Shown here: positions 54,752 through 62,466 of the stretch, piece after piece | Position numbering within the stretch: the first letter of the stretch is position 1 | How the letters are laid out: each line of letters begins with the position of its first letter | DNA from: Calothrix sp. NIES-3974 | Lineage (GTDB): Bacteria > Cyanobacteriota > Cyanobacteriia > Cyanobacteriales > Nostocaceae | Length of the DNA: 64,000 nucleotides | Direction: 5' to 3' | NCBI RefSeq assembly: GCF_002368395.1 | Contig: NZ_AP018254.1 | Coordinates: forward strand, 62,001 to 126,000 | Notes under the pieces: model-generated | Told to the model about the DNA's origin: nothing | Databases searched by the model: none | The model's input: the letters and a program-made list of their open reading frames with translations, nothing else | Made by a program: the position numbers and the translations under genes

Positions 54752-55540
54752 TTACATTTGGTCAAGTTGTTTACGTAACTCTTCCAATTCCTTATCTACC
54801 ACTTGGTTAGATTGGGATGCTGGTTGGGAGGGGGTGGTGGTAGCTTCTGTTTGAGCTTGGGGTAATGCTTGTTGTTCCGGTGCGGGAGCAAGGGAAGCTT
54901 TCAGAGCTGCGAGTTCGTCGTCAATATCGCTACCCGATTCTAGGGCTGCAAATTGCATTTCCAGGTCATTACTAGCTAGTTCCGCAGCCGATTGCGCTCG
55001 TGCTTCCTGCATGAGGACTTTTTCTTCCATCCGCTCGAATGCAGCCATCGCGCTATTGGTATTCATACTCTGCACCATACCCTGTAGTTGCTCTTGGGCT
55101 TTGGCGGAGGTAATACGGGCTTTGAGCATTTCTTTCTTGGTTTTTGCTTCGGAAATTTTGCTCTCTAGCTGAATTAGGTTGCGTTTGAGGGATTCAACCT
55201 GGACGATTTGTTGATCTAAACTAGCTTTGAGGGCAGCTGAGGATTCGGTAAAGGTTTTTTTGCGCTCCAGAGCTTGTCGGGCTAAATTCTCATCACCTTT
55301 TTGGATAGCTAATTGGGCATTACGCTGCCACTTATTAATTTCACTTTGGGCATCATTATATTGCTTTTCTGTGCGTTTTTGGGCTGCGATCGCCTGTGCA
55401 ACTCCTTGACGCAGTTGGACTAAATCCTCCTGCATTTCCAGAATCGCTTGCTCCAGCATCTTTTCTGGGTCTTCAGCCTTACTAACCAAATCATTTAAAT
55501 TCGCACTAACGACCCGTTTAATCCGATCAAATAATCCCAT
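54752..55540 (-). CDS. vipp1: Vipp1/IM30, thylakoid membrane maintenance protein
   Basis: A 262-residue ESCRT-III/PspA-family protein. N-terminal amphipathic helix MGLFDRIKRVVSANLNDLV, then long coiled coils with EDPEKMLEQAILEMQEDLVQLRQ. After about 220 a flexible Gln/Pro/Thr-rich linker leads to a final helix (VVDKELEELRKQLDQM). That extra C-terminal helix separates Vipp1 from PspA. It forms rings and rods that bind and remodel thylakoid and plasma membranes. A pspA paralogue lies 176 bases upstream on the same strand. Confidence 0.93.
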   Translation of the reverse strand: MGLFDRIKRVVSANLNDLVSKAEDPEKMLEQAILEMQEDLVQLRQGVAQAIAAQKRTEKQYNDAQSEINKWQRNAQLAIQKGDENLARQALERKKTFTESSAALKASLDQQIVQVESLKRNLIQLESKISEAKTKKEMLKARITSAKAQEQLQGMVQSMNTNSAMAAFERMEEKVLMQEARAQSAAELASNDLEMQFAALESGSDIDDELAALKASLAPAPEQQALPQAQTEATTTPSQPASQSNQVVDKELEELRKQLDQM

Positions 55541-55716: not shown

Positions 55717-56385
55717 CTACTGACTATTCTCCAAGTTCTGTTTTAGGGTAGCCAATTCTTGGTCAATATTAGCACCTCCTTCGAGAGCAGCGATTTTTTC
55801 CTCTAATTCATCCTTCCCAGCTAGTTCTAAAACCTCATTTTTGGCTTCTAGTTGTAAGATTTTATCTTCCACTTTTGCAAATACACTAGTGGTAGTACTT
55901 TTACCGGAAATCTCATCGAGAAGTTCTTGCAAGCGTACGGAAGCCTCAGCCGACCGCAGTCGAGCAATATACATTTCTTTTTTAGTTTTAATTTCGGTAA
56001 TTTTTAACTCCAAGCCGCGCATATCTTTTTTTAGTTTAGCGATTACTTCCCGTTGTTGGGCAATTTCCGAGTTTAATGTGTTGGCGGTATCTTGGTAGGA
56101 TTTGCGTTTGGTAAGGGCTTCGCGGGCTAAAGGTTCATTTCCCTGTTGTATTGCCAATTGAGCGCGTTTGTACCATTCATCAGCCGTCATTTGGGCATTA
56201 GCGATTTGTCTTTCAGTGCGTTTGTGGGTAGCGATCGCACTGGCTATTCCCTGACGTAATTCTACCAGTCGATCTTGCATCTCCAGTAAGCTTTGTGCTA
56301 ATACTTTTTCCGGGTCTTCGGCTTGATTGGCAAAACTGTGCAAATTTGCCCGTACAACTCGATTAAATCGCTCAAATAATCCCAT
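55717..56385 (-). CDS. pspA: PspA-family membrane stress protein
   Basis: A 222-residue paralogue of the adjacent Vipp1, with the same N-terminal amphipathic helix (MGLFERFNRVVRANLHSFAN) and coiled coils, but it ends without the C-terminal linker and helix. This length fits PspA proper. It binds stressed membranes to limit ion leakage. The side-by-side pair is a known cyanobacterial arrangement, explained by gene duplication. Regulators PspB/C/F are not seen. Confidence 0.92.
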   Translation of the reverse strand: MGLFERFNRVVRANLHSFANQAEDPEKVLAQSLLEMQDRLVELRQGIASAIATHKRTERQIANAQMTADEWYKRAQLAIQQGNEPLAREALTKRKSYQDTANTLNSEIAQQREVIAKLKKDMRGLELKITEIKTKKEMYIARLRSAEASVRLQELLDEISGKSTTTSVFAKVEDKILQLEAKNEVLELAGKDELEEKIAALEGGANIDQELATLKQNLENSQ

Positions 56386-59943: not shown

Positions 59944-60294
59944 TCAAATCTTCTTCTCTAACAGCAGTTCAAACTCATGCTTGAGTGCGTGAATATCTGC
60001 TAAACGAGCAACAAGTAAGTTATCTTTCCCCGCATCCTCTAAGCGTAATTTCCAGTAGCGAATACTCTCGGAGTTGTTCATCCAAAAGTTGATGACTGTA
60101 TTCATGATTTCATCTTCATCCCATCCCCATTTACTAGGTATGGGTTCTAGATAGGCTAGTAATGCATCCAATGTACAAACGGGTGAACCGACGTATTCTA
60201 TTCCTGCTTTTTGATGATTTTGTTGATTTTTTAACTGATGATCAAAAAAATTTAGGACAGGAGAAATTCCGACAATATCAAATGTATAGTTCAT
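59944..60294 (-). CDS. Uncharacterised 116-residue protein behind CIRCE-like operators
   Basis: The protein has 116 residues from ATG 60294 (MNYTFDIVGISPVLNFFDHQ); ATG 60312 would add six. It has no membrane segment, signal peptide or familiar motif. A central acidic Trp-containing stretch (PSKWGWDEDEIMNTVINFW) and a C-terminal helix (ALKHEFELLLEKK) are visible. I do not recognise it. Its upstream region carries a TATAAT box (60419-60424, minus) and two tandem CIRCE-like inverted repeats. If these are functional it is under HrcA heat-shock control. No partner gene follows in an operon. Confidence 0.75.
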   Translation of the reverse strand: MNYTFDIVGISPVLNFFDHQLKNQQNHQKAGIEYVGSPVCTLDALLAYLEPIPSKWGWDEDEIMNTVINFWMNNSESIRYWKLRLEDAGKDNLLVARLADIHALKHEFELLLEKKI

Positions 60295-60418
60295 GTAATT
60301 TTCCTGGTTCAATTGAATATTCTGAATTTAATTGAAGTACGGCACAGGAATTTTGCACGGTGCTAATGTTGGCAAAAACACTGTCCGCAAAGGATTTGAT
60401 AAATTACTCATGACTATA

Positions 60419-60424
60419 ATTATA
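60419..60424 (-). promoter_or_regulatory. -10 box for the gene at 60294
   Basis: TATAAT on the minus strand is a perfect -10 hexamer. The expected -35 position (60442-60447) reads ATTAAA, a poor match, and runs into CIRCE-like operator 1. The leader would be about 115 bases. Confidence 0.5.
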
Positions 60425-60446
60425 GCTAAAAAAAAGCTAGTTTTAA

Positions 60447-60473
60447 TTAGCACTAAGCATGTTTAAGTGCTAA
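60447..60473 (-). promoter_or_regulatory. CIRCE-like operator 1 (HrcA site)
   Basis: TTAGCACTA-N9-AAGTGCTAA, 16 of 18 arm positions as in the CIRCE consensus TTAGCACTC-N9-GAGTGCTAA, with the exact 9-base spacer. It lies about 23 bases upstream of the TATAAT box on the minus strand, touching the expected -35 position. Confidence 0.75.
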
Positions 60474-60489
60474 AGTTAGAGGCTTTTAA

Positions 60490-60516
60490 TTAGCACTAAA
60501 TCTACGAGAGTGCTAA
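60490..60516 (-). promoter_or_regulatory. CIRCE-like operator 2 (HrcA site)
   Basis: TTAGCACTA-N9-GAGTGCTAA, 17 of 18 arm positions as in the consensus, with a 9-base spacer. Its centre is 43 bases from that of operator 1, about four helical turns. A further half-site (GGTGCTAA) lies near 60359-60366. Confidence 0.8.
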
Positions 60517-60658
60517 TAGTAATTAGTGGCTTAATCTGGTTTTTAAAAATAGTTATAGTCCGTGAAAAAAAGTCTTTTCGTGAGGGTAGGGAACAGGGAG
60601 AGACGCGAGAGACACGACATGTCGCGTCTGTACGGTTTTTTGTAATTCTGTACTAAAT

Positions 60659-61708
60659 TTAATGGGAATAGTTTTCGCAGAATTGTTTGAGGATGGTGAT
60701 ACAATTTGCGATCGCACCGATATGAGCAATTTCGTAACCGTGGGTGTTTTGGGTGGGGAAGGATAAACATGCTCCCCTCGCAACATGACCGAATTTCATG
60801 GCAATTGATGCATCACTACCAAATCCACTGAGGGTGGCTATTTGGATGGGTATTTGGACTTGTTGAGCGCTGTGACGTAGTTGATTTGTTAGGTTTTCAT
60901 CATAAATACCGTAGCCATCTTGAATTAACAACACCGGTTTATCTCCGTCTTCAATGGGGTATTCAGGGGAAAGGGGACAAATTTCTAAGGCGATTAAGCC
61001 ATCTAGACGTTGATTCTGGGTAAAATATAAGGCTCCAATTGCTCCTACTTCTTCTTTCGCGGAAGCAACTAAATATACATCGACAGTAGGATTTTTCAGG
61101 ATTTGGGCTAATGTCAGTAGTATGGCTAGGGAAGCCTTGTTATCAAGGGTGTAACTGGCAATGTAGTTATTTAAACGGATGGGACGTTTGCGATGTTTAC
61201 CCACTACTACCCTTGTACCCGGACGAATTCCAGCAGTTTCTAACTCCGCAGTGGAGGATTTGGTTTCGACCCAGGATGTTTCCCAACGCACGGGGGTATT
61301 TTCCTGTTGAGCTTTTTGGGGTGATTCGTGGGAAACGTGACGGGAACCAAAACTGAGGATACCAGAAATAGTGGTATTATCACCAAGTAAATCTACTACT
61401 CCTTCACCGTAAACCCACGGATAAGCTCCACCAAGACGACGTACTTCCACCCGACCGTTTTCACCAAGGGATTTGACGATTGCACCGATTTCGTCTTTAT
61501 GAGCGGTAATCGCAATCGGATTAGCAGTAGATTGACCAGGGATTTTCGCAATAATATTATCAGCGCGATCGCACCACGTTTCAACCCCTATTTTTCCCAA
61601 TTCCTCCAGCAAAAATTGATTAATTTCCCCTTCGACTCCACTAGGAGAATGGCACATCACAAGTTGTTCAATCAGGGTAAATAGGTTGTCGTAGCTGGGG
61701 TTAGTCAT
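60659..61708 (-). CDS. M42-family metallopeptidase
   Basis: A 349-residue M42 aminopeptidase/endoglucanase-type protein. Metal and catalytic sites are visible: ITAHKDEIG (His, Asp), YTLDNKASLAIL (bridging Asp), VASAKEEVGAIGA (catalytic Glu pair) and the C-terminal GRGACLSFPTQNTHGYE-like block (HVARGACLSFPTQNTHGYE) with the last His. The N-terminus LIEQLVMCHSPSGVEGEIN is typical. M42 enzymes form large tetrahedral complexes trimming peptides in the cytoplasm. ATG start, normal length. Confidence 0.95.
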   Translation of the reverse strand: MTNPSYDNLFTLIEQLVMCHSPSGVEGEINQFLLEELGKIGVETWCDRADNIIAKIPGQSTANPIAITAHKDEIGAIVKSLGENGRVEVRRLGGAYPWVYGEGVVDLLGDNTTISGILSFGSRHVSHESPQKAQQENTPVRWETSWVETKSSTAELETAGIRPGTRVVVGKHRKRPIRLNNYIASYTLDNKASLAILLTLAQILKNPTVDVYLVASAKEEVGAIGALYFTQNQRLDGLIALEICPLSPEYPIEDGDKPVLLIQDGYGIYDENLTNQLRHSAQQVQIPIQIATLSGFGSDASIAMKFGHVARGACLSFPTQNTHGYEIAHIGAIANCITILKQFCENYSH

Positions 61709-62294: not shown

Positions 62295-62466
62295 TGAGAG
62301 GATGTTTGAAAAGTCGATTTTAATACTTGAATTATCGTTTTTAGGAGCAGGAAGAGACGCGACATGTCGCGTCTGTACGGGGGTAGAGACGACCCGACGG
62401 GTCGTCTCTACGCCGAATGAACGGTTGCGTTGCGGTTTTATGTTTAATTGCACCTACCTACTTATG
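62295..62466. repeat. Composite of family C and family B half-elements with two hairpins
   Basis: The left part (GAGAGGATGTTTGAAAAG...CGATTTTAATACTTG) equals the right half of the element at 20731, read in reverse. Then come two hairpins back to back: GAGACGCGACATGTCGCGTC and GTAGAGACGACCC / GACGGGTCGTCTCTAC. The right part (GCCGAATGAACGGTTGCG...CACCTACCTACTTAT) equals a family B half. Confidence 0.75.

Follow-up and report, generated by a model that had tools for sequence, protein, structure and literature searches.

Which gene is served by two CIRCE-like inverted repeats that lie in front of a small open reading frame (ORF) in the cyanobacterium Calothrix sp. NIES-3974? In the parts of the literature available to us, CIRCE control in cyanobacteria is described for groESL, with its paralogue, and for groEL2; a review adds that HrcA may act on certain genes lacking CIRCE (PMC7760821). 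The repeats considered here are found within a 64,000-nucleotide stretch of DNA, analyzed whole and called the window below; an M42 peptidase gene ends on one side of them, and the ORF, for a 116-residue protein, starts on the other. From comparison of sequences, we consider it very probable that both repeats are HrcA operators and that the gene under their control is the 116-residue ORF, which would make it a conserved nonchaperonin member of the cyanobacterial HrcA regulon. A further conserved CIRCE gene would be a way into the needs of GroE, or of the stressed cell, in oxygenic phototrophs and a first handle on a protein covered by no Pfam or NCBIfam model; the operators shared with groE make this protein, in many cyanobacteria, a good candidate overlooked partner in stress protection.

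The putative operators and the protein downstream

The features to which we refer are as follows, in the direction of transcription of the small gene.

60490 to 60516, minus strand: putative gene-distal CIRCE-like HrcA operator, reading TTAGCACTC-N9-TAGTGCTAA on the gene strand
60447 to 60473, minus strand: putative gene-proximal CIRCE-like HrcA operator
60441 to 60446, minus strand: weak candidate for a -35 hexamer, TTAAAA, immediately next to the proximal operator, from a scan at chance level
60419 to 60424, minus strand: weak candidate for a -10 hexamer, TATAAT, at an offset of 22 nt from the proximal operator
60302 to 60305, minus strand: possible ribosome-binding sequence AGGA before the ATG, picked out by eye
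59944 to 60294, minus strand: 116-residue protein, the likely HrcA-controlled gene, of a cyanobacterial family without a Pfam or NCBIfam match

Scored against the CIRCE consensus TTAGCACTC-N9-GAGTGCTAA, which has 18 arm positions, the site at 60447-60473 (TTAGCACTA-N9-AAGTGCTAA) has two arm mismatches and the site at 60490-60516 (TTAGCACTA-N9-GAGTGCTAA) has one, each with the exact 9-nt spacer. The first-pass annotation had put the matches at 17 and 16 of 18 and the separation of the operators at 43 bases, and both statements held, the start-to-start distance being 43 nt. These were the only two CIRCE matches at up to three mismatches in the 64-kb window, and the maximum number of matches in any of 100 dinucleotide-preserving shuffles of it was zero.

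A perfect TATAAT, said by the same annotation to follow the operators on the minus strand, was indeed found at 60424-60419, and our promoter scan paired it with TTAAAA (10 of 12 letters, spacer of 16). However, such promoter-like pairs numbered two against a mean of 1.5 in shuffles, which is the chance level, and thus a promoter is not established. Among 118 distinct leaders, hexamers resembling TATAAT in at least five of six letters lay most commonly 13 nt after the proximal operator (29 leaders) and next most commonly 22 nt after it (24 leaders), and in the leaders of relatives they also peaked upstream of the operator; because the offsets are mixed and there are upstream peaks too, we claim no start site. 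Many single-operator leaders of the window's own family (labeled f1 below) share a conserved stretch, approximately TATGAYATAG and then ACTTTTT, between the proximal operator and the gene (21 aligned), a possible promoter or leader element. We asked whether a 27-codon minus-strand frame between the operators and the gene (about 60411-60328) might encode a leader peptide and dropped the idea, its counterpart in a close relative (L007) stopping a few codons earlier and no comparable frame being evident by eye in the other leaders displayed.

The ORF gives 116 residues from the ATG at 60294 and 122 from an alternative TTG at 60312. We found no family for the protein in Pfam, NCBIfam, or PHROGs, and it had no Pfam match to the chaperonins GroES and GroEL. 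When 20 family members were compared with Pfam, there were only weak matches of single members (best E value, 0.0037), and five distant members compared with NCBIfam gave one weak match, to csf3 (E value, 0.0024), far below its cutoff. Residues 31 to 100 bear a weak profile similarity to the YbaQ-like helix-turn-helix proteins (PDB 2eby; E values of 2.7e-4 in A1 and 9.6e-4 in A2), which differ from the window protein in that the latter lacks a Pfam match; we treat this similarity as a lead only. Two AlphaFold models, made from shallow input alignments, were poor (mean pLDDT of 59.7 and 41.9), and a Foldseek search with the better one returned nothing at an E value of 0.001 or less (best, 2.0). 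Among named records, an uncultured Calothrix assembly is nearest, its protein being 99% identical. Codon differences of the window from its closest relative number five synonymous and one nonsynonymous.

The family is widespread. It was present in 82 of 100 relatives, the genome of the window included, and a profile of 20 members matched 107 of 386 genomes in a phylum-wide draw, all of them within the window's class. In the group f41, whose genomes measure approximately 2 to 4 Mb and whose members we read as picocyanobacteria, it was found in 37 of the 121 genomes searched.

The genome of the window, a single contig of 5.99 Mb, encodes HrcA (PF01628 match; E value, 5.2e-56), as did 40 of 41 genomes tested, the exception being 88% complete. 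Across that contig, CIRCE occurs as two perfect sites, the pair at this gene, and one site with three mismatches. The perfect sites precede groES-groEL and a second groEL, genes that we identified by eye from the sequence; the lone three-mismatch site is at the level of chance, since a control with the reversed pattern gave two sites at up to three mismatches. The locus thus shares its operator sequence, spacer, upstream placement, and an hrcA gene in the genome with the CIRCE/HrcA control of cyanobacterial groESL1 and groEL2. It differs from that control in that the target is not a chaperonin, the operators are imperfect and often tandem (two or three copies at 26 of 81 loci), and, in the window, they lie approximately 150 to 220 nt before the ATG.

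Conservation of the putative operators with the gene family

We examined 81 orthologue loci out of an initial 82, the remaining one being in G068 (L236), where the gene is in two pieces approximately 1.5 kb apart and a perfect CIRCE is kept 99 nt upstream. Within 500 nt upstream of the gene at the 81 loci (40,500 bases), there were 94 sites at up to four mismatches (3, 36, 47, 5, and 3 sites with zero, one, two, three, and four mismatches, respectively), and the remaining 306,308 bases of the same loci contained no site at that threshold. The reversed CIRCE pattern gave no sites in these upstream stretches, and when the spacer was varied at up to two mismatches, a spacer of 9 gave 86 sites, a spacer of 10 gave one, and spacers of 5 to 8 and 11 to 13 gave none.

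The first-pass annotation had suggested looking for CIRCE ahead of orthologues of the small protein, and what we found depended on the lineage. Within f1, 64 of 65 loci had CIRCE within 500 nt of the gene: all 56 loci of a first set at up to two mismatches and eight of nine further genomes at up to one mismatch. At the ninth locus (L308, G307:C1:5503500-5510500), the upstream CIRCE is perfect but 1.5 kb distant, and a 399-residue ORF that looks by eye like a transposase lies in between, which may have cut the family gene off from its operator; there is no groE in the 7 kb of this locus. In f41, sites at up to four mismatches, at -103 to -128, were found at all 10 loci of a first set and at 22 of 30 later loci, the other eight having none at that threshold, so that 27 of 35 different genomes had a site (five genomes are in both sets). 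Likewise, 78 of 80 loci in named records had a site at up to four mismatches within 600 nt, the two without being L158 and L140, the latter with only 167 nt of upstream sequence. Elsewhere, the expectation failed more often than it held. Of 25 loci in the order's other families, 4 had CIRCE at up to two mismatches and 5 at up to four, and among 30 further loci outside f41 (a set that takes in G068 and also one locus, L237, that has no upstream sequence), the corresponding numbers were 8 and 9; G317, of another family and the same genome as L233, had no site. Because many orthologues outside f1 and f41 lack sites (at the two-mismatch threshold, 21 of the 25 loci and 22 of the 30), the association is not universal.

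On a tree of 81 family rows, in which f1 was thinned to locus numbers divisible by three and L236, L237, and the 30 later f41 loci were left out, the CIRCE label required 12 changes, against 27.3 in shuffles. The operator association is either old or repeatedly gained. One ancestral operator with later losses is possible, and it is put no more firmly because 39 of the 78 inner branches of the tree are open.

The number and form of the operators also varied. One site was present at 35 of the 81 loci, two at 19, three at 7, and none at 20, and 27 of the 33 distances between neighboring sites were 43 to 46 nt, which would be about four helical turns. Among 88 distinct sites, 16 of the 18 arm positions carried 1.49 to 2.0 bits and the other two carried 0.46 and 0.66, whereas spacer positions carried 0.05 to 0.69. 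The gene-distal arm is nearly fixed (80 to 88 of 88 at each position); the gene-proximal arm is relaxed at the inner positions 19 and 21, where 14 and 54 of the 88 sites, respectively, have the consensus letter, and because of this relaxation the affinity may be below that of the groE sites.

The f41 operators often have the arms TTGGCACTC/GAGTGCCAA or similar. In 16 f41 genomes, one of which had none, we counted 24 sites with the core motif, 23 of them at this gene (12) or at groES (11). The single site elsewhere (L287; G265:C4:49017-49039) has GGGGCACTC arms. Eight genomes had sites at both genes, and the 7-letter arm cores were the same in four (G332, G425, G265, and G433) and different in four (G468, G479, G247, and G388). 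The shared drift of the two genes is thus partial, the kind of change being common but not in step.

Competing explanations

The repeats might be true HrcA operators, but of a gene that answers chiefly to some other stress signal, such as light, and that HrcA merely modulates, so that heat or the loss of HrcA would change little. Such a role would suit operators that are imperfect where both groE sites of that genome are perfect, lie at some distance from the ATG, and are missing in many lineages, and according to the part of a review available to us, heat-shock genes still respond to heat to some extent when HrcA is missing (PMC7760821). However, the retention of the operator across the f1 loci and its presence in two or three copies at 26 of 81 loci argue for a main role, and we consider mere modulation improbable.

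Still less probable, in our judgment, is that the palindromes act not as HrcA operators but as RNA hairpins, whether as a terminator, a processing site, or an RNA thermometer. Being palindromic, CIRCE would fold into a stem in a transcript, and at the f41 loci all nine arm pairs often match; the letters of the arms are, however, conserved beyond the needs of pairing, and they equal those of the groE operators. The Synechocystis groES transcript starts inside the loop of CIRCE, according to the part of the report available (PMC2662882). Among 10 f41 loci, 6 have a same-strand gene whose end is 86 to 152 nt before the small gene, near the palindrome, but three f41 loci with no such upstream gene (L209, L216, and L217) keep the site. 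In the window region, moreover, there was no terminator-like site, and the one Rfam match was far below threshold.

With the repeats taken as HrcA operators, we asked which gene they serve. According to the first-pass annotation, only the 116-residue ORF is placed to respond, and this view gains from our comparison of neighbors. The M42 peptidase gene (60659-61708, minus strand) is read toward the operators, which follow its 3′ end. It is flanked by a pair of palindromic repeats (core, AGACGCGACATGTCGCGTCT) at 60590-60635 and 62344-62380, 1,745 nt apart and 96% alike over 28 nt. A divergent membrane transporter, which from inspection by eye we take to be an EamA-type permease, lies upstream at 42 of the 81 loci, and CIRCE (at up to three mismatches) is more frequent with it (38 of 42 loci) than without it (22 of 39). 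In the genome of the window, however, the transporter gene is at 5,340,554-5,341,444, at least 0.76 Mb from the window locus even on a circle, and the nearest CIRCE at up to three mismatches is 281 kb away from it; all 18 f1 loci with no transporter in range keep CIRCE, and the gene neighbors vary between lineages, f41 included. That the operators belong to the transporter or the peptidase, with the small ORF a bystander, is therefore largely refuted and scarcely credible.

Nor does groE lie close to the family: in 231 family loci, which share some genomes and extend 1.5 to 5 kb to a side, queries with GroES and GroEL had no match. In 60 relatives, among the matches listed, all 33 f1 genomes with the gene had at least three CIRCE sites and the three without it had two; among the matches listed for the 14 gene-less genomes of the same 60, 11 had two sites and 3 had three. 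These counts take in sites not assigned to any gene, for example in G061, which has the gene without CIRCE and, among the matches listed, two sites with two mismatches at other places.

Predicted regulation and a possible role

Reading the repeats as HrcA operators of the small gene, we infer binding and repression by HrcA and induction by heat from what is known of groE, where, in the parts of the literature available, HrcA represses and stress releases (PMC7760821, PMC2758279, PMC4390874, PMC4227741, and PMC5381637). In an unstressed cell, HrcA dimers on both operators would block a promoter that adjoins or overlaps them. HrcA would become inactive once GroEL is occupied by unfolded protein, and the small protein would then be made jointly with GroES and the GroEL proteins. 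Two to three tandem, slightly imperfect operators would be expected to give a tuned response, in which weaker single sites, offset by their number, might permit earlier or graded release.

A parallel is offered by wcw_0502 of the Chlamydiota, for which the portion of the report available describes a CIRCE conserved before homologues of a lineage-specific, nonchaperone protein, with HrcA placed at the site by ChIP-qPCR (PMC12038028). The protein and the phylum are unrelated to ours, and the chlamydial site differs in lying between two divergent genes. In the open literature, searched other than by locus tag, the matches listed do not report the gene as a CIRCE or HrcA target; RegPrecise and subscription papers, which are outside that scope, may list the association. 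One candidate report, of P9303_05031, was rejected, since in the part available it concerns a GroES (PMC7734504).

The first-pass annotation had raised the possibility of an unreported heat-shock or chaperone-linked factor. The operators kept in f1 and f41 orthologues support the view that the protein may be one, the link to chaperones being a matter of coregulation with groE only. For the same reason, it is a guess, made with low confidence, that the small protein assists, in cyanobacteria, in the upkeep of proteins that depends on chaperonins. A tentative and rather doubtful extension is to see in this family a chaperonin partner specific to cyanobacteria (a regulator of GroEL1/GroEL2, a client adaptor, or an alternative lid factor, for example) that predates the split of the filamentous forms and the picocyanobacterium-like f41 and has been kept under the repressor of groE.

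Elsewhere in the window, two adjacent genes on the minus strand, at 54752-55540 and 55717-56385, encode coiled-coil proteins that by eye we take to be PspA/VIPP1 paralogues.
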